Source: a virus. From it: a stretch of DNA of 34,914 nt. Made by a program: the position numbers and the translations under genes. The stretch lies in the IMG/VR virus record IMGVR_UViG_3300032242_000193, positions 1 to 34,914 of that record. One strand, given 5' to 3'. The notes under the pieces were generated by a model. That model was not told the DNA's origin. It saw only the letters and a program-made list of their open reading frames with translations, and made no database searches. Shown here in pieces: positions 13,346 through 31,975 of the stretch; the stretch's first letter is position 1, and each line of letters starts with the position of its first letter.

Positions 13346-13639
13346 CTAAACAGTTGTTCCGCTTGAATTTACCCAGTGCTTTCCATTCCACCAAATTGGT
13401 ATTCCTAATGTAGTATCAAAATAATATTGTCCTACACTTACATTATCTACTGGGCGCCCTGTTGTTACACCTGAACTAGGTAAATTAATACCTTGTGTAA
13501 AATTATCTAACTGTGCAAAATAAAGACGTAGGGCATTACTAAACTGGTCTTGATACTGTTGTGTATATTCAACAGGTGCAATCAGTAAGTTAGGTGACTT
13601 AGGCGGACGAAGCGTAAAAGTTTTTAAAGGAGTTACCAT
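13346..13639 (-). CDS. Small virion-associated protein of unknown function
   Basis: This is a 97-residue protein whose start is coupled to the tail hub gene by a TAATG overlap. It has an N-terminal part with Pro/aromatic residues, a central helix (QYQDQFSNALRLYFAQLDNF) and a C-terminal beta-type motif (VGQYYFDTTLGIPIWWNGKHWVNSSG). The WWNGKHWV pattern resembles the short aromatic repeats used in phage fibre and tail attachment regions. It may be a trimeric tail accessory or an anchor for fibres. It was not recognised as a named family. Confidence 0.5.
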   Translation of the reverse strand: MVTPLKTFTLRPPKSPNLLIAPVEYTQQYQDQFSNALRLYFAQLDNFTQGINLPSSGVTTGRPVDNVSVGQYYFDTTLGIPIWWNGKHWVNSSGTTV

Positions 13640-16595: not shown

Positions 16596-17057
16596 CTATT
16601 TATTAAATATTTTTAAGTAACACATCACCCAGTCTGTCTTAATGCACATCTGAGCATCTATAATATTTATTTGACCCTTACAAATTCTTCTATGTAATTC
16701 ATTTTCTAATTTATCTTTATCATGAGCATTATTTGTACCACAATAGCTTTGAGGCCATAAATTTCTTTTATCATTGGCACCACCTAATTCTAAAGATACC
16801 AAATGGTCTACTTCGTAACCTTCTTTGCAAACACTTCTATCGTTACCTAATAGTTTATACTCAGCAAAAACTTGTTTTTTTAACAATTCAGGTACATTAC
16901 GAACAGCTGAAGTTGAAGTTGTACACAATTCTTTAACTGATACATCACGCATATAACCTGGTGTTAATTTAGAATTAGGTAATTCTGCTGAAACTCCAGT
17001 ATGTAAATTAAATATCAGTAATGTAAGTAAAGCTAATAGTATAATAAGTTTTTTCAT
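16596..17057 (-). CDS. Secreted HNH-type nuclease-like protein in the lysis cassette
   Basis: This is a 153-residue protein. Residues 1-24 are a clear signal peptide: KK, a hydrophobic core (LIILLALLTLLIF) and a VSA cleavage site before Glu25. The mature part has an HNH-like core: YEVDHLVSLELGGANDKRNLWPQ (Asp84, His85, Asn99), then DKDKLENELHRRIC (His122). Five to six cysteines suggest disulphides, consistent with export. Similar secreted HNH-like domains occur in bacteria and in phage lysis regions. Inference: a periplasmic nuclease acting on host DNA at lysis or protecting against other phages, or a former nuclease with another role. It precedes the holin by eight bases and ends in the holin ribosome site. 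The ATG has only a poor ribosome site. Confidence 0.65.
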   Translation of the reverse strand: MKKLIILLALLTLLIFNLHTGVSAELPNSKLTPGYMRDVSVKELCTTSTSAVRNVPELLKKQVFAEYKLLGNDRSVCKEGYEVDHLVSLELGGANDKRNLWPQSYCGTNNAHDKDKLENELHRRICKGQINIIDAQMCIKTDWVMCYLKIFNK

Positions 17058-17123: not shown

Positions 17124-17306
17124 TTAAAAATCTTTAAATATATTGTCAGATGGGTCAAACCACTTTAAATTTGATGAAAAATTATCAGGACATTCAATCC
17201 ACATATGCTCAGATATTGATTCTAATGGAATAATGTCAGAATATACGTCTGCAACACGATAACCCTGCTCTATGGGTTCATTTTTACATACTAATACATA
17301 CTTCAT
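17124..17306 (-). CDS. Small fibre-companion protein
   Basis: This is a 60-residue acidic protein following the glycine-rich fibre gene by 24 bases, with GGAGG twelve bases before ATG. Its pattern (short strand MKYVLVCKNE, then WIECPDNFSSNLKWFDPSDNIF) resembles small phage proteins that follow fibre genes and are thought to be fibre-assembly chaperones. The 57-residue product of 19993-20166 has a comparable PFDPSN motif. The role is inferred from neighbourhood. Confidence 0.55.
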   Translation of the reverse strand: MKYVLVCKNEPIEQGYRVADVYSDIIPLESISEHMWIECPDNFSSNLKWFDPSDNIFKDF

Positions 17307-17330
17307 TTTGAATATTTTCCTCCATCATTA

Positions 17331-18005
17331 TTAAGCCATTTCTATAGATACATAACCTACGCCACCATTGCCTGCATAAGAACCATGGTTAGAACCTTTT
17401 GTATAATCTGTATTGCTTCCTATAGCTCCAGCACCAACTGTAATGTTAATTGTTTGTCCTCCACGAACAGGCACTGTAGCAATACCTGTACCACCTGCTG
17501 AACCACCATAATTTGTTGGTCCATCATATTGAAAACCACCACCTCCACCAGCACTTGTACCTGCTGTAGCTGGTTTACTAAAGTCTCCACCTTGTGAAGT
17601 ACCAGATGCATAATAAGAATTACCACCTGTAGTTCCAGACTTAGCTCCACCTGTTTGGTTTAGTGTAGTAGAAATAGCACCTGATATAGATACTGTTCCA
17701 CCATTACCACTAGAATTACCACCATCACCACCATTAGTTGTAATATTAAATGTTCCATTTGTAACTGTTGTATTCCCACCAGCTGCCCCATTAGATTGAC
17801 CCCATTGACCGCCATTAAAATAAGATGTTTGACCTGCGCCACCACCACCAGAAGCAGTCACTAATATTTTACTGTTACCTGGAGGAACAGTAAATGTATA
17901 TGTACCAGCTGTGGTATATTGTTGTTTGCTAAACTTAACTTGAATATTAGATGCAAATCCAAATCCTTTAGCAGACATAGCCCCAGTCATTATATTTAAA
18001 GGCAT
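17331..18005 (-). CDS. Glycine-rich tail-fibre adhesin
   Basis: This is a 224-residue protein with AGGA six bases before ATG. An N-terminal strand region (IQVKFSKQQYTTAGTYTFTVPPG) leads into a glycine-dominated body with repeated GG, NGG and GGGG segments. It ends with TINITVGAGAIG and GGVGYVSIEMA. This composition matches glycine-rich phage tip adhesins that fold as packed polyglycine-II helices with exposed variable loops, as shown for the Salmonella phage S16 adhesin. A second, longer glycine-rich gene lies at 22548-23510. Inference: a host-receptor binding tip. No catalytic motif is seen. Confidence 0.65.
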   Translation of the reverse strand: MPLNIMTGAMSAKGFGFASNIQVKFSKQQYTTAGTYTFTVPPGNSKILVTASGGGGAGQTSYFNGGQWGQSNGAAGGNTTVTNGTFNITTNGGDGGNSSGNGGTVSISGAISTTLNQTGGAKSGTTGGNSYYASGTSQGGDFSKPATAGTSAGGGGGFQYDGPTNYGGSAGGTGIATVPVRGGQTINITVGAGAIGSNTDYTKGSNHGSYAGNGGVGYVSIEMA

Positions 18006-18013
18006 TTAAAATC

Positions 18014-19081
18014 CTACTTAAATTGAGATTGTGATGCTAAAACTGTAAATGTAGCGTTTGCCGTTTTAATAATACTATATGTATAAACATCTACACTAGA
18101 TGCGTCACCTGCTGTAGGTGCGGAACCATTTTGCCATAAAGGCGTTACTGATGCACCATCCACTTGAACGCCAGTATTATAATAAGCAGTACTACCTTGA
18201 GTAGAAAGGAAAGTAACAGTTCTTGTTTCGCCCACAGCCATGAGTGAATTTAATGTAGTAGAACCGTCACCTCTAAAGTTCATCACCCAAGTACCCGAAG
18301 CATTTGTGGTATAGTATAAAACACCTTGTGTTTTAACATCATAGTTAATCGTACCTGAAGATGCTATTGCAGATACAGTAGTTGTTTCACCAAGTGTTGT
18401 AACACTATTTGCATTAAGTGTTGTAAATGCTCCAGTAGTTCCTGCAATCGTCCCACCTGTAATAGCTACTGCATTAGCATTTTGTGTAGACATGGTTCCT
18501 AATGAACCTGTTGCGGCTGTTACCGCTGTTGATACAAATGCTGTTGTAGCTACCTTTGTAGTATTATCTCCTGCTGTAGGTGTCGGAGCTGTAGCAGCCC
18601 CTGTAAGTGTTGTGGTTCCTGTAACTGATAAATTCCCTGCTACCGTGGCGTTTCCGGCAATATTAAAATTACCTGGCGCACCTGATATACCTGCATAAAA
18701 ATTAGTACCATCACAGAATACTAACGTCGCCGAACTTGCAGGAATTGTAGCTAACGTACCAGAACTTCCGCCAATCGTAATGGCATATCCCCCTGACGTA
18801 TTGTTGTATACCACATATACTTTCGGCACTAATGGGGCTACAATTTGACGTATTGCCGAATTTGTTCCGCCTACAAAAAGCACCATATTACGCGCTTCGT
18901 CTGAAACACCATTAAGCACACTTAAAGTGTAATTAGCATTAATCATGGTAATAGACTGCACACCTGCTACGGCTTGTTCTATTAAGTTCCAGTTAGTATT
19001 AGTCGTAGTACCCCAAACACCAGACTGTTCGCCTGAAGCTATAAGCTGTATTTGAAGACTTGTTGAGTAGGTAGATGCCAT
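18014..19081 (-). CDS. Tail fibre protein
   Basis: This is a 355-residue Ser/Thr/Gly/Ala-rich beta protein with AAGGA six bases before ATG. The start MASTYSTSLQIQLIASGEQSG followed by VWGTTTNTNWNLIEQA is a common N-terminal attachment module of environmental phage tail fibres. The middle (NVAGNLSVTGTTTLTGAA..., DNTTKVATTAFV) has the trimeric beta-helix-like repeats of fibre shafts. The C-terminal 120 residues (TINYDVKTQGVLYYTTNASGTW...) form a separate beta domain also seen in phage fibres. It probably trimerises as a shaft with an attached head. The receptor is unknown. Confidence 0.7.
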   Translation of the reverse strand: MASTYSTSLQIQLIASGEQSGVWGTTTNTNWNLIEQAVAGVQSITMINANYTLSVLNGVSDEARNMVLFVGGTNSAIRQIVAPLVPKVYVVYNNTSGGYAITIGGSSGTLATIPASSATLVFCDGTNFYAGISGAPGNFNIAGNATVAGNLSVTGTTTLTGAATAPTPTAGDNTTKVATTAFVSTAVTAATGSLGTMSTQNANAVAITGGTIAGTTGAFTTLNANSVTTLGETTTVSAIASSGTINYDVKTQGVLYYTTNASGTWVMNFRGDGSTTLNSLMAVGETRTVTFLSTQGSTAYYNTGVQVDGASVTPLWQNGSAPTAGDASSVDVYTYSIIKTANATFTVLASQSQFK

Positions 19082-19091
19082 GATTTATCCT

Positions 19092-19991
19092 TTATTGAGA
19101 ATCGTCTATTGATGCCCAAGTAGTTGTTTGTGTATTATTAATTGTATTCCAACTTGCAGACTGTGTATTATTAATTGTATTCCAAGTTATTGTATCAGAA
19201 TCGTCTATTCTAAACCAGCCTCGTGGAAACTGAATATCTAACATAGCAAATGTTTCTACAATACTAGACTGAAATTGGGCCGCTATAGATGGCGTATCTG
19301 CTAAGTTAATGTTTTCATTTAAAGAAGCTACAAATCCTGCAATAATAGTTCTTGCATCATTACTACTAAAGTTCTCTGTAATAGATAAAAAGAACACCGA
19401 TATAATAGTTAACACATCCGCCATCGTCATATTTTCAGTTCTTGAAACTGCAAAGTTAGCTAATATACTAGCCGCATCTGCCATTGTTATATTTTCAGTT
19501 AAACTTTGTGCAAATTGCGCTGTGATACTTGGTGTGTCATTTAAGTTAACATTCTCTGTTTGTGAAGCTAGGAACTGAGCCGCTATGCTTCTTAAATCAT
19601 TCATGGTAAACGGTTCTACTCGGTCTTCTAATGCCGCAAAGTATTGCACGGATGAATCATCCATATTGATGTTCTCGGCTCTTGCTGCTGCAAACTGAGC
19701 TGTAATCGTTTGGTTGTTATTTAAATTTATATTCTCTGATATGTTTTGACCAAAGGTACTAGCCTGTGTACTTGAATCTGCAAGAGTAATAGCTTCTGTA
19801 ACGGAACCATTAAATAACCCTGCTTGAGAGTTAAAGTCATTAAGCGTAATCGGCTCAGTTCTACTTTGTAGAAAAGCATACACTTGGCTGTTTGAATCTG
19901 CTACCCCAATATTCTCTGTGAGAGATAATATAATTGAGTTGCCACCAAGAGATGCAAAAGGTGGTTGAGCAAAGGCAGCGTATCCAAACAA
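19092..19991 (-). CDS. Tandem-repeat fibre-like protein (eleven 20-residue repeats plus Trp repeats)
   Basis: This 299-residue protein starts with TTG at 19991, with GAGGT eight bases upstream. After a 24-residue hydrophobic/aromatic N-terminus, residues 25-244 are eleven repeats of exactly 20 residues with consensus TENI.L.D..SI.AQF..S. A divergent twelfth copy spans 245-264. The end (259-299) switches to four 11-residue repeats starting at Trp259, 270, 281 and 292 (WNTINNTQ-like). Constant-length repeats with conserved Asp and Phe suggest a beta-solenoid or coiled shaft of fixed rise. It sits within the adhesin array, between a 57-residue gene and the 355-residue fibre. No enzyme motif or known domain was recognised. 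Probably a virion spacer or fibre; the function is inferred. Confidence 0.6.
   Translation of the reverse strand: MFGYAAFAQPPFASLGGNSIILSLTENIGVADSNSQVYAFLQSRTEPITLNDFNSQAGLFNGSVTEAITLADSSTQASTFGQNISENINLNNNQTITAQFAAARAENINMDDSSVQYFAALEDRVEPFTMNDLRSIAAQFLASQTENVNLNDTPSITAQFAQSLTENITMADAASILANFAVSRTENMTMADVLTIISVFFLSITENFSSNDARTIIAGFVASLNENINLADTPSIAAQFQSSIVETFAMLDIQFPRGWFRIDDSDTITWNTINNTQSASWNTINNTQTTTWASIDDSQ
19095..19217 (-). repeat. Four 33-base coding repeats with Trp (11 residues each)
   Basis: Residues 259-299 of the same protein repeat W-x2-I-[DN]-[DN]-[ST]-[QD]-x3 four times. The middle two copies (WNTINNTQ) are identical in their eight-residue core, and the DNA is nearly identical, which suggests a recent duplication. 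Confidence 0.8.
19200..19919 (-). repeat. Twelve 60-base coding repeats (20 residues each)
   Basis: Residues 25-264 of the 19092-19991 product repeat every 60 bases without any length change. The copies are diverged at the DNA level but keep Glu at position 2, Asp at position 8 and Phe at position 16 in most units, which indicates old duplication maintained by structure. Confidence 0.85.
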
Positions 19992-19992
19992 G

Positions 19993-20166
19993 TTATACTA
20001 CCTCGTCTGCTGGTAAAGGTGTATTACCCTCGTCTAACCATTTTAGGTAGGCTTGGTAGTCTGTGTTAGATGGGTCAAATGGAATATTTGCTCCATCTTC
20101 TTTGATAACTATATTTGCTATAAAAGAATTTCCATCTGGCAATATTGCTTTAACTTGTTTATACAT
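19993..20166 (-). CDS. Small fibre-companion protein (57 residues)
   Basis: This is a short gene with GGAG seven bases before ATG. The product starts MYKQVKAILPDGNSF and ends with PFDPSNTDYQAYLKWLDEGN then TPLPADEVV. The 'DPxNxDYxxYLxWLxEGNTPxPAD' pattern is a recurrent end of small phage proteins lying after fibre genes, often called tail-fibre assembly-like. It follows the 354-residue fibre by two bases, and its end supplies the ribosome site of the TTG-started repeat gene. A chaperone or companion role is inferred. Confidence 0.65.
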   Translation of the reverse strand: MYKQVKAILPDGNSFIANIVIKEDGANIPFDPSNTDYQAYLKWLDEGNTPLPADEVV

Positions 20167-20167
20167 A

Positions 20168-21232
20168 TTATAACTCCGCTGTTAAACCAGCAGTTAATTG
20201 GGCTTGATAGCCAACAGACCAGTTATTTGCTGAATTATAGAAATATGCCACTTCAGTAGTAGTGCTATTGTATGGAGACAATCCAGGTGTTCCCGCCACC
20301 CCGCCTGTAACTGAGTATGATGCTGTTGGAACAGTAGATAATGTAGGAGCACTTCTCATACTGGATTTAAAAACAACACCTTGCGAAGATGCAATGTTTC
20401 CAAACATGATATTACCTTGAGGATAACTTGTTACCGCATAAAAATATCTCTGACACAATGCTAATTCATTAGTATACATTCTGCGTTCAAATGGTGTTGC
20501 TGTTGAGCCTACTTCTAGTTGGACACCTGTTATGTAGAAGGTAGCTCCGTTAGTGCCGACTACTGAAGTTGCGCCTGTGGCAGAAAAATAAGAATTTGAA
20601 GACCAAGAACCTGCTGTTCCACTAATTGTTGAGCCAACACCAAGACCCCATAATACATTTATACCTGAACCATTGTTAGTTAGCCACGTTCCAGTAGTAT
20701 CTCCAGCAATTGTTACAGAAATTGAAGTCCAAGTATTTGCTACTGGAATTGAATATGTAAATGGATAGCTGCGATTATAAGCACTATTATTTAATGTTCC
20801 CCCAAATGTTCCAGTAAGACTAGAATATACTTGAAAGGATAAAGTTATTGTTTTTGCATTAGCTGTACCCCAAGCTAAATCAGATACATTAAAACCTTCA
20901 ATAGATTGAAATAAATTAAATCTTTCTGAAGCGCCTACTGTATATGCTGAAGTAGAAGTAAAACCTAAATAATTAGTAAATCCAACAGGAGGAGTAACTG
21001 AACCTGCATTTTGTTGGGCCGTAAATTTAGATGCTTGTGATGCACCATAAAAAAACCTATCAACTAAATATTGTCCATTAGTAGGAGTAACACTAGCCCC
21101 AGCATTTCTCTGGTCAATCCTCATGTCACCATTTATAATACGATTCTTTAGCACATAAGGTGACGCTGCAGCTCCTTGTAGAGATGAGTCGTTAAATGTT
21201 ACTCCATTTGTGCCGTCTACTATTAAGCTCAT
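20168..21232 (-). CDS. Tail fibre / carbohydrate-binding-like adhesin (copy 2)
   Basis: This is a 354-residue protein with AAGGA six bases before ATG. The N-terminal module (MSLIVDGTNGVTFNDSSLQ) is a fibre attachment segment. SPYVLKNRIINGDMRIDQR begins a beta-sandwich of the carbohydrate-binding kind that ends with FYITGVQLEVGSTATPFERR and NELALCQRYFY. A distinct C-terminal domain (about 260-354) follows. It is paralogous to the 357-residue product at 23807-24880, with the same domain borders but a different C-terminal third. It shares 22 identical bases (20496-20517 with 24183-24204). Probably binds a surface polysaccharide. Confidence 0.65.
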   Translation of the reverse strand: MSLIVDGTNGVTFNDSSLQGAAASPYVLKNRIINGDMRIDQRNAGASVTPTNGQYLVDRFFYGASQASKFTAQQNAGSVTPPVGFTNYLGFTSTSAYTVGASERFNLFQSIEGFNVSDLAWGTANAKTITLSFQVYSSLTGTFGGTLNNSAYNRSYPFTYSIPVANTWTSISVTIAGDTTGTWLTNNGSGINVLWGLGVGSTISGTAGSWSSNSYFSATGATSVVGTNGATFYITGVQLEVGSTATPFERRMYTNELALCQRYFYAVTSYPQGNIMFGNIASSQGVVFKSSMRSAPTLSTVPTASYSVTGGVAGTPGLSPYNSTTTEVAYFYNSANNWSVGYQAQLTAGLTAEL

Positions 21233-21241
21233 ATTTTGTCC

Positions 21242-21757
21242 TTATACTGCCGCTTGATATGTAATTGTAATTATTGGGTTGTTAGCATTTGTCCACATTG
21301 TAGTATTATTATAGTAATAACAAGTCATTGTAGAACCACCGCTACCTACTAAAGCTTGAATCATATTGCCTGTATTGTTTTGTTCACGACCAGCTCCTAC
21401 TGCTGCTACTGACCCATTAGTGAAAGGCAATGTTACAATCATACCTCCACTTGCAGTTCCTACGGTTGTTAAAGTAATATTAACTTGAGCAGTTACTAAC
21501 TTGCCTATTTTTGTGTATGCTCCTGAAACAGAATAAGTAGTAATAGTTCCAGAGCCTGATGTTACTGTAGGTGTATAAGTGCCATATTCATAATCATTTA
21601 AAGCTTGAGATGATAATCCACCAGGATTTGCAGCAAATGTAAGACCACCAGAACCCACAGTCACTACCGTAGTACCCGCACTTTGTAATGCTAAGCTTCC
21701 TGTGTTATCCGCTGTGGCTACTATGCCTGAACTTGTTGTTGCGTTAATTGATGCCAT
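21242..21757 (-). CDS. Small tail-fibre domain protein
   Basis: This is a 171-residue beta-rich protein. Its start is coupled to the C1q-like gene by TAATG, with GGGGAG four bases before. The N-terminus (MASINATTSSGIVATADNTG) matches the short attachment segment of several genes here. The rest (DYEYGTYTPTVTSGSGTITT, VSGAYTKIGKLVTAQVNITL) is a stand-alone beta-sandwich domain found at the ends of many environmental phage fibres. Receptor contact or capping of a fibre is inferred. Confidence 0.6.
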   Translation of the reverse strand: MASINATTSSGIVATADNTGSLALQSAGTTVVTVGSGGLTFAANPGGLSSQALNDYEYGTYTPTVTSGSGTITTYSVSGAYTKIGKLVTAQVNITLTTVGTASGGMIVTLPFTNGSVAAVGAGREQNNTGNMIQALVGSGGSTMTCYYYNNTTMWTNANNPIITITYQAAV

Positions 21758-22329
21758 TATGCTCCCCTAGCTAAGAAACCTGATAAACCTGTTACACCAA
21801 AACCACTTCCTGCATTTAATGACCCGCCACTAGTTTGGTACATATATAATTCCACATAATCAGAAGAACCATTTAAATAAATAATTGTTGATGTATTTGC
21901 TGTTCCATTTAAACCTGAAACACCTATTCCTGAAGACTGTGAAATTTGACTCCCATTTTTCCAAATAGCAATACCATATGCTTGAGATGTTGAAACAATT
22001 TGAGCCATCCCATTAATTTGATAATACCCAGCAACTGTAGGGAGAAACCTATATAAAGATGTATTAAAATTTGAGTTGGTATCAAATAATATTGTATTGA
22101 TAGCAATTTTTGTCCATGTTGTATTTGGTATAGATGTTGTTGCACTTGCATAAGCGTTAAAAGCAGGACCATTCCCCGCTATGTTTGGTGGTAGGTTTGC
22201 TTGTGTTGTTCCTGTAGTAATAACTGTACCACTTGTTGATGGAAGCGTAAGCGTAGTTGAACCACTTATCGCAGGGGCTTGTAATATGACTGAACCGCTT
22301 GTATCGCCTGAGATTGTTATACTGCTCAT
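21757..22329 (-). CDS. C1q-like (TNF-like jelly-roll) fibre protein (copy 2)
   Basis: This is a 190-residue protein. I place the start at 22329 (MSSITISGDTSG) rather than the in-frame ATG twelve bases upstream. 22329 gives an ATGA overlap with the preceding gene and lines up with the paralogue MASIVVAGDTSG at 25661. After the attachment segment (TTLTLPSTSGTVIT), the domain FNAYASATTSIPNTTWTKI, FDTNSNFN, YRFLPTVAGYYQINGMAQI and IYLNGSSDYVELYMYQ follows the pattern of bacterial/phage C1q-like jelly-rolls, which form trimers. Likely a trimeric adhesin head. Confidence 0.6.
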   Translation of the reverse strand: MSSITISGDTSGSVILQAPAISGSTTLTLPSTSGTVITTGTTQANLPPNIAGNGPAFNAYASATTSIPNTTWTKIAINTILFDTNSNFNTSLYRFLPTVAGYYQINGMAQIVSTSQAYGIAIWKNGSQISQSSGIGVSGLNGTANTSTIIYLNGSSDYVELYMYQTSGGSLNAGSGFGVTGLSGFLARGA

Positions 22330-22538
22330 AGTACCACCCATTTACTGCCTGACGGCACGGTTATATTAATACCTGAATTGATTGTTAAAGGACCTACACT
22401 CATCGCACTTGACCCTGTTGTTATGGTATAACTTGTTGTCACTGTTCTTGTGTTTTCATAAAGAGGTACAGTAGGTGCTAACACTGTGACGTTAGAACTT
22501 GTACCTATCATTGTATTTTGGACTGTAGTTAATGCCAT
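22326..22538 (-). CDS. Small fibre module protein
   Basis: This is a 70-residue protein with AAGGA six bases before ATG. Its last 45 residues (VTTSYTITTGSSAMSVGPLTINSG... ending SGSKWVVL) match the C-terminus of the 813-residue fibre (ITASYTIPVGSNAMSTGPVT... ending AGSRYIVI). So it is a stand-alone copy of a fibre-end module, perhaps a cap or trimer seed. The first 25 residues (MALTTVQNTMIGTSSNVTVL) look like an attachment segment. Confidence 0.55.
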   Translation of the reverse strand: MALTTVQNTMIGTSSNVTVLAPTVPLYENTRTVTTSYTITTGSSAMSVGPLTINSGINITVPSGSKWVVL

Positions 22539-22547
22539 GATTTATCC

Positions 22548-23510
22548 TTATGCTGTGTAGCTTCCTGATGCTGTGAATGTTAATATTGTATTTGAACCTG
22601 AAGTAGTTACTGTAGGTGAACCTGTATATGTACTTGAATATTTTGCTGTAGGTACTGAAATAATAACGACACCAGAACCACCAGCTCCACCGCCTCCAGA
22701 AATTACATTGGTAGCACCACCACCACCACCGCCACCGCCACCTGTATTGGCAGTTCCAGCAACTCCGTTTGGTACAGCAGAACTATATCCGCCAGCACCG
22801 CCACCGCCAGAACCACCAGCACCTCTTGCACCAACTCCATAAGAACCACCAGCACCACCACCACCACCACCACCATAATTAACTGCTGACCCTGTGATAG
22901 ATGAAGAATATCCTGCACCACCAACACCAGCGGCTGAACCAACACTTGCATTTGTACCATTAGCTGCTGAACCTGCACCGCCACCACCTATACGAGTATC
23001 TGTTCCGGCACTACTTCCTGCTGAACCACCGCCAGTACCACCTGTATAAGATGTTGTTATACCAGATATTTTTTGAGATGACGTACCACCGGTTTGACCT
23101 GTAACTCCAACACCAGCTGCAGCTGTTTCTCCAATAACAGATATGATAGAAGCAGTGCCGCTATTATCACCATTACCTCCAGCACCTACAGTAATAGTAT
23201 AAGTTGTTCCAACTGTAAATGAATACGATGCCGCAACGACAGAGCCACCACCACCGCCTGCACCACCAGAACCACCAGCATTACTACTACCACCACCACC
23301 GCCAGCTACAATTAAATATGAACCGGCTACAGTAGGTACGGTAGAAGAAAAAACCCAAGAAGAGCCATTATAAAACTCTAGAGCTCCATAAGATGAGTTA
23401 TATCCCATCTGCCCTGTAATAGGAGAAGCTGGACGAGTTGCTGTTGTCCATGTAGATATGGCTGTGCCTCCGTTAGAACCTAGTGCTGATAGATTGACCG
23501 CATTAGTCAT
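22548..23510 (-). CDS. Glycine-rich tail-fibre adhesin (long form)
   Basis: This is a 320-residue protein with AAGGA six bases before ATG. The N-terminal segment (STWTTATRPASPITGQMGYN, then ALEFYNGSSWV) is a widespread phage fibre motif that positions a following domain. From about residue 65 there are roughly 200 residues of GGGG, GGAGG and GSGG clusters with embedded VGTTYTITVGAGGNG, as in glycine-rich tip adhesins built from polyglycine-II helices. The last 40 residues are a Ser/Thr beta cap. The glycine clusters create strand-symmetric CCACCACC DNA that could promote slippage and phase variation. Likely a receptor-binding tip; a shorter relative is at 17331-18005. Confidence 0.65.
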   Translation of the reverse strand: MTNAVNLSALGSNGGTAISTWTTATRPASPITGQMGYNSSYGALEFYNGSSWVFSSTVPTVAGSYLIVAGGGGGSSNAGGSGGAGGGGGSVVAASYSFTVGTTYTITVGAGGNGDNSGTASIISVIGETAAAGVGVTGQTGGTSSQKISGITTSYTGGTGGGSAGSSAGTDTRIGGGGAGSAANGTNASVGSAAGVGGAGYSSSITGSAVNYGGGGGGGAGGSYGVGARGAGGSGGGGAGGYSSAVPNGVAGTANTGGGGGGGGGATNVISGGGGAGGSGVVIISVPTAKYSSTYTGSPTVTTSGSNTILTFTASGSYTA

Positions 23511-23513
23511 GTA

Positions 23514-23810
23514 TTATCCTTGTGGAGCTTCCGTTACTGTATCTTCCCATAACCATGTTGTTTCGTTTAACACTGCTGTGTCTGATGGTTTAGGTGCAAT
23601 GAATACATCGTTGAGAGCATCGTATGTGTAACCAATTCCAGCGTAATTACCTCTTAAAGGTCTACCTTCTGGGTGTTGATTACCATGCGTATTATAGCTT
23701 GTTTGTAGCCAAGTACCTGGACTTGAATCTACGAACGTATCAAAAAATTCTGGTTCAGCCACGATGACTTGTGTAACCTTACCGTCTACTACTTTTGCAA
23801 AATGACTCAT
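23514..23810 (-). CDS. Conserved small virion/fibre-companion protein
   Basis: This is a 98-residue protein whose start overlaps the end of the 357-residue fibre by ATGA, with AGGA eight bases before. FAKVVDGKVTQVIVAEPEFF, PGTWLQTSYNTHGNQ and YAGIGYTYDALNDVFIAPKP form a pattern common in marine phages, including T4-like cyanophages, where it is an uncharacterised structural or tail protein. The neighbouring genes on both sides are fibres. The role may be fibre assembly or a fibre subdomain. Confidence 0.65.
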   Translation of the reverse strand: MSHFAKVVDGKVTQVIVAEPEFFDTFVDSSPGTWLQTSYNTHGNQHPEGRPLRGNYAGIGYTYDALNDVFIAPKPSDTAVLNETTWLWEDTVTEAPQG

Positions 23811-24880
23811 AGTTCACATCCTGTAAATTGAATCTGTGATGATGTTCCAACTGTTAGTCTAGCGGCTCTGTATTGAGTTAATCCACTAGCTACGCTAACA
23901 AATATTAAAGCCGTATTTATTGAAGCAGAATTAAATGTAACTGCTGTTGCTGTTGTAGTTGTTACCCCATCATCTGTACCAAATCCAGAAGCTGCTGTAG
24001 TTGTAATTCCCGTTGGAAATACTCTAGGTGTAACTATAAATGGAATGGTAAATTGACTTCTGGTTGTTGAATCTGATAACCCACTATAATTAATTGTAGT
24101 TGCAGAACCGTTACCTTGTATTACAGGCAAATACCTCTGACAATTAGCTAACTCTTGGTTATACAATCTTCTTTCAAAAGGAGTTGCTGTTGAGCCTACT
24201 TCTAACTGAACGCCTGTAATGTAGAGTGCATCATCTGCACCTGCTGTACCTGTTGGAGTAAATGAGGTATAAAAACCTATTTCATTTGTTCCTGCTGGTA
24301 TTGTTGCAGTAAATGTATATCTTACCCAAGATGTAGTAATTGCAGCATTAGTATTAATTGTATTAGCATAGTTAGTCCAAGTACCTCCACCAAAAGCACT
24401 TAATCCTTGGTCTGTTCCACTTCCTGTACCTAATATTACACTAATTAAATTTCCAGATGCTGAAAAATTTGCTCCAGCTTTAGCATAAAAAGAAAGAGTT
24501 ACAGTTTGACCAGATAAATCGTAGCAATTATTTGTTTCTATAACTTGAAATGCGTATAATATATTTGTATATGTTTGAGAAGCTGTTCTTTGCATTTTTA
24601 AGCTATATTGAAATCCTGTAGGAGCACTTGTATTTTGTGACCATGTAGCATTTGCTCCAGCACAATATACAGCAAATCTATCAGCTGTATAATTATAACC
24701 AGAACTAGTTGTAGTAAAGCTTGTTCCTCTTTGCCAAACTTGAAATCCACCGTTAATAATTCTATTCTTCAATACATAAGGACCCGCTGCGTACTGCTGA
24801 TTAGAACTATCAGAAAAAGTAAGTCCAGCACTAGAGTCTAGCGTTGTTGAGCCTGATGCTCCTGTAAGTATGAGTGCCAT
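23807..24880 (-). CDS. Tail fibre / carbohydrate-binding-like adhesin (copy 1)
   Basis: This 357-residue paralogue of the 354-residue product at 20168-21232 starts at a TAATG junction. The attachment segment (MALILTGASGSTTLDSS, LTFSDSS) precedes GPYVLKNRIINGGFQVWQRG and a beta-sandwich (VTLSFYAKAGANFS, WVRYTFTATIPAGTN) typical of carbohydrate-binding-like fibre domains. It closes with LYITGVQLEVGSTATPFERR and ELANCQRYLP. The C-terminal third differs from its paralogue, as expected when receptor specificity is swapped. Function is inferred from composition and context. Confidence 0.65.
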   Translation of the reverse strand: MALILTGASGSTTLDSSAGLTFSDSSNQQYAAGPYVLKNRIINGGFQVWQRGTSFTTTSSGYNYTADRFAVYCAGANATWSQNTSAPTGFQYSLKMQRTASQTYTNILYAFQVIETNNCYDLSGQTVTLSFYAKAGANFSASGNLISVILGTGSGTDQGLSAFGGGTWTNYANTINTNAAITTSWVRYTFTATIPAGTNEIGFYTSFTPTGTAGADDALYITGVQLEVGSTATPFERRLYNQELANCQRYLPVIQGNGSATTINYSGLSDSTTRSQFTIPFIVTPRVFPTGITTTAASGFGTDDGVTTTTATAVTFNSASINTALIFVSVASGLTQYRAARLTVGTSSQIQFTGCEL

Positions 24881-25041
24881 TATGCTAATTCCTCATCTGT
24901 TGGTTTAGATAATGTTGGGTGTTCCCATTTAGCTATGTAGTCACCTTTACCATCAGAGTCGTTTTGTAATGTGATTGTGGTTAGAAAGTCTTTATCTTCT
25001 AACTGTGGATATAGTTGTTTAATCTTTTCGTATAATGACAT
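24880..25041 (-). CDS. Small fibre-companion protein (53 residues, XkdW-like)
   Basis: This is a short gene with AAGGAG six bases before ATG and TAATG junctions on both sides (with the C1q-like gene before and the 357-residue fibre after). The product begins MSLYEKIKQLYPQLEDKDFL, continues ITLQNDSDGKGDYIAKWEHP and ends KPTDEELA. This resembles small phage proteins of the XkdW kind near tail-fibre genes. A chaperone or companion role is inferred. The tight coupling on both sides supports a real gene despite its size. Confidence 0.65.
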   Translation of the reverse strand: MSLYEKIKQLYPQLEDKDFLTTITLQNDSDGKGDYIAKWEHPTLSKPTDEELA

Positions 25042-25661
25042 TATGCACTCCTTACCATAGATGCTGAAAATGTAGAGTTGTTTGAATTTCCATAAGAAGT
25101 AATAGTTCCACTAGCAGTAGCTCTTACATACATTTCTAAATAATCTGTTGAGCCATTCATATATATTAAAGCAGAAGTTGTTAAAACTATTTCAGTAAAC
25201 GTACCTCCAGCATAAGGAATAGAGCAAAATTTAAAAAATGCACCATTTTTATAAAAAGCAATAGCAGAGCCTGTCATTGTTCCAGCTATGCTTGTAGCTA
25301 AATCAGCACAACCATTTACTTGGTAATAACCTGCTACCGTAGGAGTAAATCTGTAGTTAGTTACATTATCATAATTACTATTTGTATCAAATTCTTTTGT
25401 ATTTATTTGTGCTTTTGTAAAAGTATTAGTTGTTAGTGTAATATTAGCAGATTGATAAGCACTAAACGCTGGACCATTACCTACTACGTTTGTAGATAAA
25501 GATGCTTGCGTTACTGTCCCTGCTGAAGGCGTAATTGTACTTGCACTTGTTAAAACCGTTCCACTTGTTGTAGGCAATGTAAGCGTAGTTGTACCTGATA
25601 CTGCTGGGGCAGCTAAGGTTACGGTTCCTGAGGTATCTCCTGCGACTACTATGCTTGCCAT
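25041..25661 (-). CDS. C1q-like (TNF-like jelly-roll) fibre protein (copy 1)
   Basis: This is a 206-residue paralogue of the 21757-22329 product. GGAGG is nine bases before ATG, overlapping the stop of the S74 fibre. It shares the attachment segment (VAGDTSGTVTLAAP, TTLTLPTTSGTVLT) and the jelly-roll pattern: FSAYQSANITLTTNTFTKAQ, FDTNSNYD, YRFTPTVAGYYQVNGCADL, LIYMNGSTDYLEMYVRA. The two copies differ mainly in surface-loop segments. Likely trimeric receptor-binding head. Confidence 0.62.
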   Translation of the reverse strand: MASIVVAGDTSGTVTLAAPAVSGTTTLTLPTTSGTVLTSASTITPSAGTVTQASLSTNVVGNGPAFSAYQSANITLTTNTFTKAQINTKEFDTNSNYDNVTNYRFTPTVAGYYQVNGCADLATSIAGTMTGSAIAFYKNGAFFKFCSIPYAGGTFTEIVLTTSALIYMNGSTDYLEMYVRATASGTITSYGNSNNSTFSASMVRSA

Positions 25662-25662
25662 G

Positions 25663-26553
25663 TTACTTAGCCTCCAATGTTTCTATACGAGCTTTTAAGT
25701 CGTTGATGATGGTTTGTTGTTCTTGGATTGCTGCTGTTAGAGTAGCTACTAGGAATGATGTATCTACGCCTTGATATTTAGGATTTCCATTATTGTCAAT
25801 ATCATCTTTATTTCCACATACTGCATCAGGTATTATTTCTGCCAATTCATGAGCAATAAAACCTTCACCAATATCATTAGATTCTTTCCATGTAAAAGTT
25901 ACTGGTTTTAATAAAGAAACTCTATCTAAAGCATTTTGTAATGGTTTAATGTTTTCTTTTAAACGATAGTCTGATGATGTTGTATAAGCTACTGTTGTAG
26001 AATTTGTTTGTGAAATATATCCGTTAGTAGTATTGCTACTATTTACAAAGTTTATAAATCTACCACCTGTAGATGTTGCCGCATTTTGAATAGCTATGCC
26101 GTAAGCTGTGTTTGCAATATCTGCTGCTTTAATATTTAATTGATTATTAGCACCGCCAAGTTGAGATGTTGTTCCAATTAATGTATATCCACTAGAGTCT
26201 ATACGCATACGTTCTGAACCAGCTGTCCACCAAGAATGATTAGAATTTCCTATATCTTGACGATAAAAGTAACCAGAAGCAAATGAATATAATATATCTG
26301 AATTACCTGTACGATATGTAATAAATCTATCAGTACCAGCACCTATTCTATAATATGAGTCAGCAGTAACATTAAGACTACCAACCACATCTAATTTATA
26401 AACAGGACTTGTAGTACCAATCCCTACATTCTGTGATGTATCTATAGTAACTGCTGTGGTAGCTGCTGTTTGAAGTTGTAGTTGTCCACTAGAATCTCCA
26501 GTAGAAACTATGCCGCCAAATCCAGAATTACTTGCGTTTATCGTAGAAGCCAA
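25663..26553 (-). CDS. Tail fibre with C-terminal S74 intramolecular chaperone
   Basis: This 296-residue protein starts with TTG at 26553, with AAGGA six bases upstream. The N-terminus carries short attachment repeats, followed by VGIGTTSPVYKLDVVGSLNV (a common trimeric fibre motif) and a beta shaft to about 190. The C-terminal 105 residues are an intramolecular chaperone of auto-processing (endosialidase, Peptidase S74) type. SSDYRLKENI has the catalytic Ser194 and Lys199 at the S-x4-K spacing. FTWKESNDIGEGFIAHELAEI and a C-terminal coiled coil (TAAIQEQQTIINDLKARIETLEA) follow. The chaperone drives trimer folding and then cuts itself off before Ser194. The mature fibre would end near 193. 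Confidence 0.85.
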   Translation of the reverse strand: MASTINASNSGFGGIVSTGDSSGQLQLQTAATTAVTIDTSQNVGIGTTSPVYKLDVVGSLNVTADSYYRIGAGTDRFITYRTGNSDILYSFASGYFYRQDIGNSNHSWWTAGSERMRIDSSGYTLIGTTSQLGGANNQLNIKAADIANTAYGIAIQNAATSTGGRFINFVNSSNTTNGYISQTNSTTVAYTTSSDYRLKENIKPLQNALDRVSLLKPVTFTWKESNDIGEGFIAHELAEIIPDAVCGNKDDIDNNGNPKYQGVDTSFLVATLTAAIQEQQTIINDLKARIETLEAK

Positions 26554-26562
26554 TTTTTATCC

Positions 26563-29004
26563 TTAAATAACTATATATCTACTGCCTGCTGAGACAGTAA
26601 CGGTTACACCACTTGCTGCAGTTACAGGGCCCGTACTCATGGCATTACTACCTACAGGAATTGTATAAGAAGCCGTGATGGTTTTGTTATTAATAATTAT
26701 ACCATTAGTTGCATTAATTACAGCTGCTGTACCTGTGGTTGTAGTTGGAAGAGCTAAATAACGGCATGAGATATTATTAGTACCTAATGGTGGCGCTGTT
26801 GAGAATGTTAAAGTCGTTCCTGATACTGTGTAATTACCTGGGTCTTGAACCACACCTGATATAGCTACGACCACCGATTGGGAATTAGCAGGTGTTACAG
26901 ACATAGTAAATGCTACTTGAGAGCCTGTACCACTAAACGTATCATAGGATATAGTAGCTGCTGTATTAACTGATGCAAAGGCTATAACTTCAATCACGTC
27001 CCCTACATTAGCCCCCGTAGCTAAAACAATTGTAGTTCCATTAGACGCTGTATAGTCTGCAATAGCTAATTTAACACCGTTTCTATAAACTTCAACAAGA
27101 CCTACTGTATAAGTTACTGTAAATGTAGTCTGCCCTGCTGTGGCTGTAAAGTCTGTAACATTAAATGAAGCACCCGTTGCCGAGTTAGCTGCCCATGAGG
27201 GAACACCAGAAGCTAGCGTTAAAATATATCCATTAGTACCTGCAGCTAGTTTAGATAATGTATTTGTAGCGGAAGCGTAAAGAATATCACCCGTTGTATA
27301 AGTTGACTGTCCTGTACCGCCTGATGTAGCACCTAATGTGCCTGCTAAAGTGACAGCACCACTTGTGGCTGTATTGGGTGTTAGTCCACTTAAAGATGTT
27401 TGGAATGTTGTAACACCGCCTGAAGAAGCCTGCCATGAAGCTGTGGTACCGTTTGATGTGAGTACATATCCGTTAGTACCAATAGCTAATCTTGTAGCAG
27501 AATTTACGCCATTACCAAGTATTAAATCACCCGTAGAAGTAATAGGGCTTAATGCATTAAATGCAGCAGAGGCTGTTGTTTGTCCTGTACCGCCATTAGC
27601 AATCGGTAATGTACCAGTAACGCCTGTAGATAAAGGCAATCCAGTAGCATTTGTTAATGTCACTGAAGTGGGTGTACCTAGTATTGGTGTAACTAAAGTA
27701 GGAGAAGTAGATAACACATTGTTACCTGAACCCGTAGAGGTTGTAACTCCAGTGCCACCAGCTAATACAGGTAAAGTTCCAGCAGTCAATGCTGAAGCTG
27801 ATGTAGAATAAATAGCATTATTAGCCGCTGTAAATGTTGTAAGGCCTGTACCACCAAACCCTGTAGCTAATGTACCCGCTAATGTAATAGCACCTGCTGT
27901 CGCAGTATTAGGTGTTAAGCCTGTAGAACCACCACTAAATGTACTTACATAGTTACCTGTTAACGCAGAAGTTGGGATTGTGGTAGATGCTGTAAATGCC
28001 CCTGTACCGTTACCATAAACATAACCTGTTAAAGTAACTGCGCCTGTACCACCTGCTGCAACAGGAAGTGTACCTGCAGCTAAAGCTGAACTTGATGTTG
28101 AATAAAGAGCATTGTTAGCTGCTGAGAAAGTTGTAAGCCCTGTACCACCGTAACCTGAAGCAACCGCTGTACCTTGATAAGTTGTATTAGAAATAACCGC
28201 TCCACCAAAGTTAGCAGAGGTAGTACTAAAATCGTATGAAGCTGGAAGTAATGCGTATTTACCCCAAGAACCTGCAGAGGTTGTATTATCTTCTACAAAT
28301 ATATATGAGTATCCACCAGAAGGAACAGTATCTACCGTAGCAGATGCATTATCTACAATCGTGACAGTACCACTTGAATCATTATCAAATGTAAAGCCTT
28401 GGCCATTGGCCATTGTTGTGCCAACAGGTAACTGAATAGTTTGTGTAGTAGAACCACTAATTCTTTGATAATAAGCAGATGCATTAGTTAAAACAGTTGT
28501 ACCACCAGCAGCAGTAATAACGTTATAACCTGCAAGGAAGTTGTTAGCACTTATGTTTATATTAGCATCACGTAGAACTACAGAGTTAGCACCAGAAGAT
28601 GTAGTAACGCCTGTACCGCCATAAGCAACACCTACAGTTGACCCTTGCCATGTACCTGAAGATACTGTTCCTAAAGCACTAACATTACCAGAACCATCTA
28701 GGTTTACTGATTTTTCTGAAGGATAGGTAACAAAGACATTGACTGTACCAGAAAAAGTAACGGCACTTCCAGAATTGCTTGAGGATAAGATTGTAGTACG
28801 AGTTAAAGTAGGACCAGATGTTGAGTAAGTACCAATACCTACTTCCCAATTACCTGATGCATCTGTAGCTGCATAATAGGTTGTGTTTCCGTTGCCAACA
28901 ACAGCAAAAGATTGAAACCCAGTAACTGAGCCTGTTAGGGTAAAACTAATTGTGGTATTAGCCGTACCCTGCTGCTGGACACGGTCATTTAATGCAAGAG
29001 CCAT
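26563..29004 (-). CDS. Large tail fibre protein with GGTG repeats
   Basis: This is an 813-residue protein with GGAG five bases before ATG. The N-terminal domain (MALALNDRVQQQGTANTTISFTL, WEVGIGTYSTSGPTLTRTTIL) is a classic phage tail-fibre attachment domain. The shaft has repeated GGTG motifs, including two long copies of YGGTGLTTFSAANNALYSTS type spaced 98 residues apart, as in trimeric fibre shafts. Residues about 615-740 hold two beta-sandwich modules (FTATAGQTTFTVTYTVGLVE and a related VAFTMSVTPANSQSVVVAI). The end module (ITASYTIPVGSNAMSTGPVT) also occurs alone at 22326-22538. It is the first and longest fibre in the array and is probably the main shaft carrying the others. Confidence 0.85.
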   Translation of the reverse strand: MALALNDRVQQQGTANTTISFTLTGSVTGFQSFAVVGNGNTTYYAATDASGNWEVGIGTYSTSGPTLTRTTILSSSNSGSAVTFSGTVNVFVTYPSEKSVNLDGSGNVSALGTVSSGTWQGSTVGVAYGGTGVTTSSGANSVVLRDANINISANNFLAGYNVITAAGGTTVLTNASAYYQRISGSTTQTIQLPVGTTMANGQGFTFDNDSSGTVTIVDNASATVDTVPSGGYSYIFVEDNTTSAGSWGKYALLPASYDFSTTSANFGGAVISNTTYQGTAVASGYGGTGLTTFSAANNALYSTSSSALAAGTLPVAAGGTGAVTLTGYVYGNGTGAFTASTTIPTSALTGNYVSTFSGGSTGLTPNTATAGAITLAGTLATGFGGTGLTTFTAANNAIYSTSASALTAGTLPVLAGGTGVTTSTGSGNNVLSTSPTLVTPILGTPTSVTLTNATGLPLSTGVTGTLPIANGGTGQTTASAAFNALSPITSTGDLILGNGVNSATRLAIGTNGYVLTSNGTTASWQASSGGVTTFQTSLSGLTPNTATSGAVTLAGTLGATSGGTGQSTYTTGDILYASATNTLSKLAAGTNGYILTLASGVPSWAANSATGASFNVTDFTATAGQTTFTVTYTVGLVEVYRNGVKLAIADYTASNGTTIVLATGANVGDVIEVIAFASVNTAATISYDTFSGTGSQVAFTMSVTPANSQSVVVAISGVVQDPGNYTVSGTTLTFSTAPPLGTNNISCRYLALPTTTTGTAAVINATNGIIINNKTITASYTIPVGSNAMSTGPVTAASGVTVTVSAGSRYIVI
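27720..28152 (-). repeat. 294-base (98-residue) repeat in the large fibre shaft
   Basis: GGTGLTT[FS]-type unit 285-382 begins again at 383 with [YF]GGTGLTTF[ST]AANNA[LI]YSTS[SA]SAL, TAGTLPV and LAGTL repeats. The DNA of the two copies is recognisably similar. The second copy is partial (to about residue 425). Confidence 0.75.
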
Positions 29005-29013
29005 TTAAGCTCC

Positions 29014-29625
29014 TTAGCTAGTTGCAGTTGTAGAGTATGTTACTGAAACTGTATCGCCCGCTGTTGTGACCTTAGCTGTTGCAAAATTACCTTCACTATA
29101 TAAAGTACCTGCTGTTGAACTTTGTGTATTAACAGCGCCAGAACCTGTTACCAAGAAACAACCATAAACTGTACCACCTGCACCTGTAATAGTGTAAGTA
29201 ATAGCAGTAGCTGCTGAAGTTGTTACGTTAGATGGTGTTGTACCTGTTGAAGATGCCGCTGCAAACACTGCTGTACCTCGTACTGCTGAGCCACCTACTG
29301 TGTAGTTAATAAATTCAGCTGCATTAGTCGTAACCAATGTAGTCATAGTATCTGTAGCTACGGGTGTTAGTGATACTTTAGTAAGACCTAAGAATGGTCC
29401 AACTGTTGTGTATGTACCTGATGTACGTAATAAAGTATTGAGTAGTAACTCTTTACCGCCTTGAACAACTAAATTAGGAAACTCTTCTTCCCATTTTAAA
29501 TTGCCATCTTTATCGTGGCAAACTACGTGGTATTGACCATGTACGCCTAATACTTCGTTGGAATTTGCACCCGCATTTAACGTGATGGTAGCTTGGTCTC
29601 CAAAACCTTGTTTTTCTTTATGCAT
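29014..29625 (-). CDS. Conserved virion/tail-associated protein
   Basis: This is a 203-residue protein with AGGAG six bases before ATG. The N-terminus HGQYHVVCHDKDGNLKWEEE and FPNLVVQGGKELLLNTLL is a recurrent block of uncharacterised structural proteins in environmental phages. The C-terminal 130 residues are Thr/Ser/Ala-rich beta sequence. It lies between the adaptor block and the first fibre, so a baseplate- or fibre-connecting role is plausible. No enzymatic motif is seen. Confidence 0.6.
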   Translation of the reverse strand: MHKEKQGFGDQATITLNAGANSNEVLGVHGQYHVVCHDKDGNLKWEEEFPNLVVQGGKELLLNTLLRTSGTYTTVGPFLGLTKVSLTPVATDTMTTLVTTNAAEFINYTVGGSAVRGTAVFAAASSTGTTPSNVTTSAATAITYTITGAGGTVYGCFLVTGSGAVNTQSSTAGTLYSEGNFATAKVTTAGDTVSVTYSTTATS

Positions 29626-29634
29626 AATATACTC

Positions 29635-30063
29635 CTATGAAAATCTAATTACAGCGTCCGTGGCAGTGTCCGCTGGAAAAGTTATTGTAAATGAATTAGT
29701 GCAGGTCTTATCAGACCCAAAGTTTAGCACACAAACAGCTGAACCGGTTGTACTATTGTATATCAAAGCACCTCTACAAGTAAATGCGGCAGGGCTCCAA
29801 GTTACATTATTAAAAGACACATAAGCCGTGTTTGCAGTTGTGTTTGATAAAGGCGCAATAGGAACTAATGTATAACCACCTGCTGTATATCCTGTACCTG
29901 TTATTTCGTTTGTTGTTGTATATGCTGTTGTTGCATTATCTAAATTAGCATTACCGTTGTATAACGCAACTTTATATGTATAGGGTGATGTATTGGAAAA
30001 GTTCTCCAATGCATTTAAGCAGTTTTGCTTGAATATTGTAGTAAGTCCTTGAGCTATAGCCAT
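29635..30063 (-). CDS. Conserved small virion protein
   Basis: This is a 142-residue beta-rich protein coupled to the adaptor gene by TAATG. TYKVALYNGNANLDNATTAY, NEITGTGYTAGGYTLVPI, TCRGALIYNSTTGSAVCVLNF and the end TFPADTATDAVIRFS are patterns I associate with uncharacterised structural proteins next to tail genes in aquatic phages. It probably forms part of the tail or a fibre connector. The role is not established. Confidence 0.6.
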   Translation of the reverse strand: MAIAQGLTTIFKQNCLNALENFSNTSPYTYKVALYNGNANLDNATTAYTTTNEITGTGYTAGGYTLVPIAPLSNTTANTAYVSFNNVTWSPAAFTCRGALIYNSTTGSAVCVLNFGSDKTCTNSFTITFPADTATDAVIRFS

Positions 30064-30986
30064 TATGGATTAACCTGTATTCTTGCTTGGCCATCGCGAT
30101 AAGAATCACCACGTTCTAATCCTGTACCAAGTCTATTAAGTTGTTGCATAGCTTCTTGATATTTAGCTTCGTAATAAGTAACCATATCAGCTTCTGCTTT
30201 CATAAATATCATGGCTTCACGCATAGCACCATAAAGAAGGACTGGGTCATAATTATCACCTAACCATGATGTACCGTTTGTATTAGTGATTGCAGTAACG
30301 GATGTACTAAATCCTGAACCTGAGCTACCGATTGTAGTTGTAGCTGCAGATAGTGAATCTCCTACCACATAGAAGTTTCCACCATATCGTAATGATACTG
30401 ATGTAACACGCCCTCCACTTACTACAATATCTGCATATGCGCCAGAACCTGAACCACCTGTAAGAGGAATATTCTGATATACCCCGTTGGTATATAACGA
30501 ACCACCGCTGAACGATGCTGTATTTAATGTCGTAATCTGACCTTGTACAATAGTGGGTGGATAATAATAGTAGTGCATTTCTACACTATAACTAGAATCC
30601 GGCGTAGGCCCTAAAATAAGTGACATCTCATTAATGTCTGTATATTGAGACCCAAAAAGTGCATAGTGTTTAGGTAACCCTGTTTTAGTAGGGTTTGGAT
30701 ATGCTTCACGAATAAAGTTAACATCTTTATTTAATAAATATGTGTAATTACCAGATGCATCAATCACTGCAATAGAATAATTGGATAACCAATCATTAGG
30801 TAGTGATACATATTTATTACTTGAGGTTAATGTACCTGTTACGTTTTTACGTAAAGCTGGAATTTGAACTGAGTTATATATACGGTCTTCAGCTTCTTGC
30901 ACAAAGACAGGAATATTAGCCACGAACAACGCTTCGGTGTTCTCGGCATATGCTTGAATACTGTTATATAAAACTTCGTAGTTCAT
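30063..30986 (-). CDS. Head-tail adaptor protein (SU10 adaptor-like) with inserted beta domain
   Basis: This is a 307-residue protein. Residues 1-145 (NYEVLYNSIQAYAENTE, VQEAEDRIYNSVQIPALRKN, VSLPNDWLSNYSI, LILGPTPDSSYSVEMHYYYY) and 240-307 (GDNYDPVLLYGAMREAMIFM, then helix and RDGQARI) form the pattern of adaptor proteins that join portal to tail. They are interrupted at about 149-238 by a Gly/Ser-rich domain (GVYQNIPLTGGSGSGAYADI, VTSVSLRYGGNFYVVGDSLS) seen as an independent module in other phage proteins. It overlaps its neighbours by TAATG on both sides. It is placed after the gp4-like protein, as expected for neck genes. Confidence 0.65.
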   Translation of the reverse strand: MNYEVLYNSIQAYAENTEALFVANIPVFVQEAEDRIYNSVQIPALRKNVTGTLTSSNKYVSLPNDWLSNYSIAVIDASGNYTYLLNKDVNFIREAYPNPTKTGLPKHYALFGSQYTDINEMSLILGPTPDSSYSVEMHYYYYPPTIVQGQITTLNTASFSGGSLYTNGVYQNIPLTGGSGSGAYADIVVSGGRVTSVSLRYGGNFYVVGDSLSAATTTIGSSGSGFSTSVTAITNTNGTSWLGDNYDPVLLYGAMREAMIFMKAEADMVTYYEAKYQEAMQQLNRLGTGLERGDSYRDGQARIQVNP

Positions 30987-31540: not shown

Positions 31541-31975
31541 TTATGTTGTAGATATTGTTACTGTACCGACTTGTGTGTTACATATCAAGTCATTTGGGGT
31601 TAATCCTGTATCATTACTTCTTGCACCACCAACCGGACCCCAACCCCATTGGAATATTCTACTACCTGCTTCTGGATATCCATATTCATCTGCACTATTT
31701 ACGTTAGCTGCATATAAATTTGTTAATACACCACTTTGTCCTGATACATAGTATGACACGTCTGGACGTGGTTCCTGCACAGCTTGTGGGTCAAAAACAG
31801 GAAAAGTTCCAAGTAATAACTGTGGCTGGTCAGGATTAAAACAAGTTCTACATACTTTAATTCTATAAGGTTTAGTCTTAACAATTTCAGTACGTAATTC
31901 ATGCAACTTGTATCTAAATGCACATCTATCGCATTCGGCAATAGCATTTTTTCCACTAGAGTATTTAGTTGACAT
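31541..31975 (-). CDS. Zinc-ribbon virion protein
   Basis: This is a 144-residue protein. Cys15 and Cys18 (ECDRCAF) and Cys42 and Cys45 (VCRTCF) form a zinc ribbon with 23 residues between the pairs. The C-terminal 60 residues (FQWGWGPVGGARSNDTGLTP, NDLICNTQVGTVTISTT) form a separate beta part that recurs in aquatic phage structural genes. Its start lies inside the end of the HNH gene (11-base overlap) with only a weak ribosome site (AAAGAA). This is consistent with its original leader having been displaced by HNH insertion. Proposed role: neck or head-completion accessory. Confidence 0.6.
   Translation of the reverse strand: MSTKYSSGKNAIAECDRCAFRYKLHELRTEIVKTKPYRIKVCRTCFNPDQPQLLLGTFPVFDPQAVQEPRPDVSYYVSGQSGVLTNLYAANVNSADEYGYPEAGSRIFQWGWGPVGGARSNDTGLTPNDLICNTQVGTVTISTT

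Follow-up and report, generated by a model that had tools for sequence, protein, structure and literature searches.

A multi-adhesin array with two candidate anchor fibres and replaceable heads in a putative host-recognition region of a short-tailed aquatic phage

The DNA analyzed in this study, referred to here as the window, is a 34,914-base IMG/VR virus record (IMGVR_UViG_3300032242_000193) and is probably a fragment of a larger genome. Seventeen consecutive and nearly gapless ORFs run along its minus strand from position 29625 down to 17124, flanked by a tail-adaptor block on one side and lysis genes on the other, and a Shine-Dalgarno sequence is visible upstream of most of them. They comprise about 12 fibre- or adhesin-type genes, four small accessory genes, and one conserved gene to which no function is given. 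The original prediction of about 15 consecutive fibre genes was thus right about the consecutive array but not about the number. The array and its conserved borders consist of the following genes.

g11, 30063-30986, minus strand: SU10-type tail adaptor, the conserved left border (Pfam PF24175, E=5.8e-20; conserved in relatives)
g12, 29635-30063, minus strand: conserved gene beside the adaptor (phrog_644; matches in 86 loci)
g13, 29014-29625, minus strand: conserved gene (phrog_8123; dN/dS 0.12 against the closest relative)
g14, 26563-29004, minus strand: candidate anchor fibre 1, 813 aa (phrog_18673, tail fiber; N-terminus conserved across relatives)
g15, 25663-26553, minus strand: plug B with an S74 intramolecular-chaperone head (Pfam Peptidase_S74, E=4.4e-14, above cutoff)
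g16, 25041-25661, minus strand: plug A with a predicted C1q-like head (49% identical to g22; in the C1q family alignment)
g17, 24880-25041, minus strand: 53-aa XkdW-type accessory (Pfam XkdW above cutoff; PDB 2hg7, E=2.4e-5)
g18, 23807-24880, minus strand: predicted CBM4-like (ITGVQLEVG) head (phrog_4492, E=1.1e-43)
g19, 23514-23810, minus strand: 98-aa accessory, here downstream of g18 (phrog_7759)
g20, 22548-23510, minus strand: Gly-rich head (Pfam Gly_rich_2 above cutoff)
g21, 22326-22538, minus strand: 70-aa stand-alone copy of the g14 fibre-end motif (52% identical to g14 residues 772-813)
g22, 21757-22341, minus strand: plug A with a predicted C1q-like head (AlphaFold model with Foldseek match to C1QL proteins, E=3e-9)
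g23, 21242-21757, minus strand: plug B with a small head like a tailspike-family end (phrog_32881, E=3.3e-9)
g24, 20168-21232, minus strand: predicted CBM4-like head (phrog_4492, E=7.9e-49; AlphaFold model with Foldseek match to CBM4, E=2.6e-6)
g25, 19993-20166, minus strand: 57-aa accessory (downstream of a CBM4-like head in relatives)
g26, 19092-19991, minus strand: repeat protein of about 300 aa (dN/dS 0.26; usually immediately before g27 in relatives)
g27, 18014-19081, minus strand: candidate anchor fibre 2 (conserved N-terminal domain, about residues 1-130; variable remainder)
g28, 17331-18005, minus strand: Gly-rich protein, a weak assignment (Pfam Gly_rich_2 below cutoff, E=0.094)
g29, 17124-17306, minus strand: 60-aa small gene after g28, a possible accessory by position only
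g33, 13639-15756, minus strand: tail stabilisation protein, the conserved right border (phrog_3287)

The four small ORFs g17, g19, g25, and g29 (53-98 aa) are counted as accessory genes rather than adhesins, and no family match to g29 was found in PHROGs and Pfam searches. The start of g22 is probably the ATG at 22329, which is preceded by GGAGG, rather than 22341. The array occupies 12.5 of the 34.9 kb (36%), so it does take up over a third of the window as predicted, but its share of the genome would be nearer a fifth, because related contigs extend to about 56-67 kb. These contigs are among the many IMG/VR matches of g33, whose nearest named phages are DSL-LC04, MinM2, Planktothrix phages, and the Pelagibacter phages HTVC027P and HTVC023P. 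On the basis of these matches, the window appears to represent about half of the genome of an HTVC023P/DSL-LC04-type short-tailed phage. The largest ORF in the window (2286-8411, 2041 aa) is weakly conserved (7 loci), and in relatives its position is taken by a protein annotated as a DNA-transfer or large structural protein.

The head types originally proposed for the array are present, the C1q jelly-roll and the ITGVQLEVG-type sandwich according to structure prediction, and the S74 and Gly-rich types according to Pfam. Two heads, g22 and g24, were modelled with AlphaFold as single chains using 47 sequences each. The g22 model is a confident C1q jelly-roll whose fold matches among phage proteins include the phi812 central spike and a cyanophage A4 portal-tail chain, and its plug has no predicted secondary structure in the single-chain model. 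By itself g22 is a sub-threshold C1q match in Pfam. However, PF00386 is matched by 16 of the 47 members of its family, and the family profile, which matches C1q proteins in the PDB, supports the assignment; g16 and g22 are therefore predicted to adopt the C1q jelly-roll fold. Both genes with the YITGVQLEVGS motif, g18 and g24, match the tail-fibre PHROG 4492. The g24 model is a CBM4-like sandwich with a target TM of up to 0.71 for the core alone, the first 30 and last 100 residues not being confident, and fibre entries of CBA120 TSP4, Pa193, and Kp7 appear lower in its list of fold matches. A CBM4-like fold with putative sugar binding is thus suggested for g18 and g24, and a PDB sequence match of this family to the spike GP13 (9t9r; E=0.05) is a lead at most. 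Searches of g14 and g27 against PDB sequences found nothing useful.

The original prediction also held that several adhesins start with a similar segment, as if plugged onto a common base. The similar starts form three separate pairs, g15/g23, g16/g22, and g18/g24 (shuffle z of 10.2, 17.9, and 17.8), and no other pair of N-termini in the array exceeded a z of 5. The N-termini therefore fall into three unrelated families, which rules out a single start segment common to all adhesins. Across 196 loci and with approximate head labels, plug A carries C1q heads in 99 cases and unassigned heads in 27, whereas plug B carries S74 (24), Gly-rich (18), and C1q (13) heads; the small cells of this plug-by-head table rest on loose labels and were not relied on. 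In g14, a conserved N-terminal domain (about residues 1-105) is followed by a variable repeat shaft and a conserved fibre-end motif, and the N-terminus of g27 matches annotated tail proteins of HTVC023P, MinM2, and DSL-LC04. Because their N-terminal domains are conserved and their remainders variable, g14 and g27 are probably virion anchors that attach to the tail through these domains. In relatives, the same heads that the window carries on plugs occur fused directly to the two anchor domains. CBM4-like (loci L179, L356), C1q (L234), and S74 (L168, L173) heads are joined to the g14 anchor, and S74 (L326, L279) and Gly-rich (L177) heads to the g27 anchor. Two apparent fusions of the g14 anchor to CBM4-like heads (L193, L282) were discarded, as they are without the motifs of that family. 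The fibre-end motif of the g21 type is in relatives joined to g14-type anchors, with 36 such fusions.

These fusions, together with the presence of several heads with their own plugs in one genome, are what a branched tail would predict, in which the small adhesins dock on the 813-residue fibre or on each other and every virion displays many heads. However, three unrelated plug families do not look like one docking segment, and we consider this arrangement possible but rather doubtful. The reading that we prefer, which is set out below, has the plug-head adhesins carried by the tail itself or by the anchor fibres.

The interval between the tail adaptor and the stabilisation protein measures 14.3 kb in the window and 4.2-15.3 kb (median 10.1) in 32 relatives. 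The window thus ranks second of 33 within a continuous range, and relative G044 is larger, which rules out size as an exceptional feature; the expectation of unusually many adhesin genes has weak support from this rank within a continuous range. The array is large, but not exceptional, among HTVC023P/DSL-LC04-type relatives. When genes were called by a simple script and heads labelled by spot-checked BLAST thresholds, a recurrent order emerged in the relatives, namely adaptor, g12, g13, g14 anchor, variable heads, g26, g27 anchor, variable genes, lysis genes, and stabilisation protein, with local gains and losses. The border genes match tens of loci, and several array genes match few or none. 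The border proteins are themselves variable in places: an extra domain of the g11 adaptor (about residues 148-235) is absent in roughly one third of relatives, in which the flanking parts join directly, and the middle of g33 (about residues 120-335) varies strongly in length and sequence between well-conserved ends. 2OG-Fe(II) oxygenase genes are present in the fibre region of L162 (5324-5944), L163 (16780-17373), and L357 (9539-10809 and 13815-14489), the phages with such genes being DSL-LC04, HTVC027P, and HTVC023P; none was seen in the array of the window.

It might be argued that some of the heads decorate the capsid, or confer general sticking to particles and glycans rather than selection of a host cell, since they have general glycan-binding or C1q folds and no tail domain is recognised on the plug-only proteins. 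The location of the region between two tail genes and the fusion of the heads to fibre anchors in relatives make this improbable, and point instead to the preferred reading of tail-borne adhesins.

As the original prediction proposed, related contigs were compared to see which genes vary. The closest relative is L193 (contig 3300023184_000425), in which flanks and anchors are kept and heads are replaced. Its DNA is 93% identical to the window from the adaptor block into g14 and 83% identical from the end of g25 into g27. In g15 homology stops after about 33 codons and in g16 after about 35-50, and it resumes at some gene ends; the g15 counterpart keeps residues 1-33 at 88% identity and carries a different head. 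The g14 protein of L193 is 162 residues shorter owing to a shaft deletion, and both of its ends are about 90-100% identical. The array therefore contains replaced putative receptor-binding genes inside conserved flanks, in the manner of a variable island. The dN/dS values of the compared array segments (0.08-0.31) indicate that they encode maintained proteins.

No reverse transcriptase (PF00078) was detected in 15 records, the window being a fragment, with a search control that was positive in 3 genomes, nor was a resolvase-type invertase (PF00239) detected in these records, and no long inverted repeats were found around the array genes in the window. A store of alternative tips, of which one or a few would be used per virion under a retroelement- (DGR) or inversion-type switch, could account for the many alternative heads and the paralogous pairs g16/g22 and g18/g24, but is very improbable given these results and the intact, maintained ORFs, all on one strand with their own start sites. 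With neither enzyme found, exchange between phages is a better fit than a programmed switch. Two genes with HNH features were also observed in the window. The first (16596-17057), between the array and the lysis genes, encodes a 153-aa protein that begins like a signal peptide and contains an HNH-like motif, EVDHLVSLELGGANDKRNLWPQ, and has no relatives in the 160 or so loci compared first. The second (31965-32471) is a 168-aa HNH-type, homing-endonuclease-like gene inserted between conserved neck genes. Some contigs have relatives of this gene at other positions, among them positions inside or next to the fibre region (L182, L197), so that it might act to promote recombination locally.

Several heads are followed by a particular small gene. 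Of 93 genes for the XkdW-type accessory, 91 lie directly downstream of a gene for a C1q head, and of 105 genes for the 57-aa (g25-type) accessory, 103 lie directly downstream of one for a CBM4-like head, although either head type accounts for only 4-5% of the 2940 predicted genes. As many loci were fetched by these very heads, the fair subset consists of loci fetched with the other head, in which the pairing holds in 16/17 and 28/30 cases, respectively. The 98-aa (g19-type) accessory follows Gly-rich heads in 22 of 37 cases (7/8 among loci that were fetched with shell genes). The window itself contains the pairs g16-g17 and g24-g25, with the exceptions that g18 is followed by g19 instead of a g25-type gene and that g22 has no accessory. 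The isolated phage MEP401 (Zobellviridae; host Methylophilales FZCC0133) contains both pairs, the C1q gene gp56 followed by the XkdW-type gp55 and the CBM4-like gp53 followed by the 57-aa-type gp52. The match of g17 to the XkdW family (PF09636) covers the N-terminal half of XkdW only, and no Pfam or PDB match to g25 was found. In T4 (gp37/gp38) and lambda (Stf/Tfa), the fibre gene is followed by that of its chaperone. The g17 and g25 types occupy such a position directly downstream of their fibre, as does the g19 type in the 22 of 37 cases. By analogy with this gene order, and with the fibre-chaperone modules of Alteromonas phages (PMC10579305), the accessories probably help the folding or trimer assembly of their head. 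Specificity of the 57-aa accessory for the distal tip was dropped as an idea, since accessory-head co-variation is weak (partial r=0.12, p=0.04). A limited, open-access literature search turned up neither head-specific accessory pairing nor the two-anchor layout, which does not prove them to be new.

Domains, folds, and comparison together support a multi-adhesin host-recognition region, most probably that of an HTVC023P/DSL-LC04-type short-tailed phage. We give a probability of roughly 0.68 to the reading that combines two anchors with separately translated plug-head adhesins, their accessories, and the exchange of heads between phages. According to this model, g14 and g27 would be fixed to the tail through their N-terminal domains. 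Around them would be adhesins translated from genes of their own, each consisting of a short plug at the N-terminus and a C1q-like, CBM4-like, S74, or Gly-rich head; these would probably assemble as trimers, several with the aid of a small accessory specific to the head type. The adhesins would probably be made together, mounted on the tail or the anchor fibres, and bind surface glycans, and their heads, sometimes with the accessory, would be swapped between phages by recombination at conserved plugs and gene ends. More tentatively, and at clearly less than even odds, the genes may belong to a kit shared across aquatic phage families, consisting of interchangeable plugs and a limited set of lectin-like heads, each head type with its own assembly factor, so that several independent adhesins per virion could be read from gene order.

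The array shows how an abundant aquatic phage group places many separate adhesins between conserved anchors. It also offers testable pairs, the C1q head with its XkdW-type partner and the CBM4-like head with its 57-aa partner, both of which MEP401 carries. Should these partners prove to be assembly factors dedicated to one head type, it would become feasible to make properly formed adhesins from uncultured phages and to measure which glycans they target.

Among known systems, the named HTVC023P/DSL-LC04-type phages share the adaptor-to-stabilisation gene order and the anchor-type fibre N-termini, but their heads differ from those of the window and they carry the oxygenase genes in the region. 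In the Alteromonas phages A5 and V22, a fibre gene and its cognate chaperone gene have moved together between distant phage families (PMC10579305). That system comprises one fibre and one chaperone, whereas the window has several head types with different small accessories as putative chaperones. The array resembles CBA120, with its four-spike branched tailspike complex, and other Ackermannviridae in having several receptor-binding proteins in one cluster (PMC7506556, PMC11414711). However, the window phage is of a different type, with lectin-like heads and no recognised depolymerase. The Ackermannviridae spikes share N-terminal docking domains; among the N-termini of the array, as compared with each other, three unrelated families and no shared docking segment were seen. 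The closest parallel in gene content is found in the marine metaviromic islands (Mizuno, Ghai, and Rodriguez-Valera 2014; PMC3909814), which are variable host-recognition regions of up to 4.6 kb defined by poor read recruitment, in which carbohydrate-binding, tail-fibre, C1q-like, and lectin-like genes are most frequent and XkdW and fibre-assembly genes are also listed. We found no mention there of the head-accessory pairing seen in the relatives of the array, and the array differs in its length of about 12 kb, its phage type, and its definition by contig comparison (PMC3909814). The array is, nevertheless, a large member of this already described class of variable host-recognition regions, in which C1q and XkdW genes occur.
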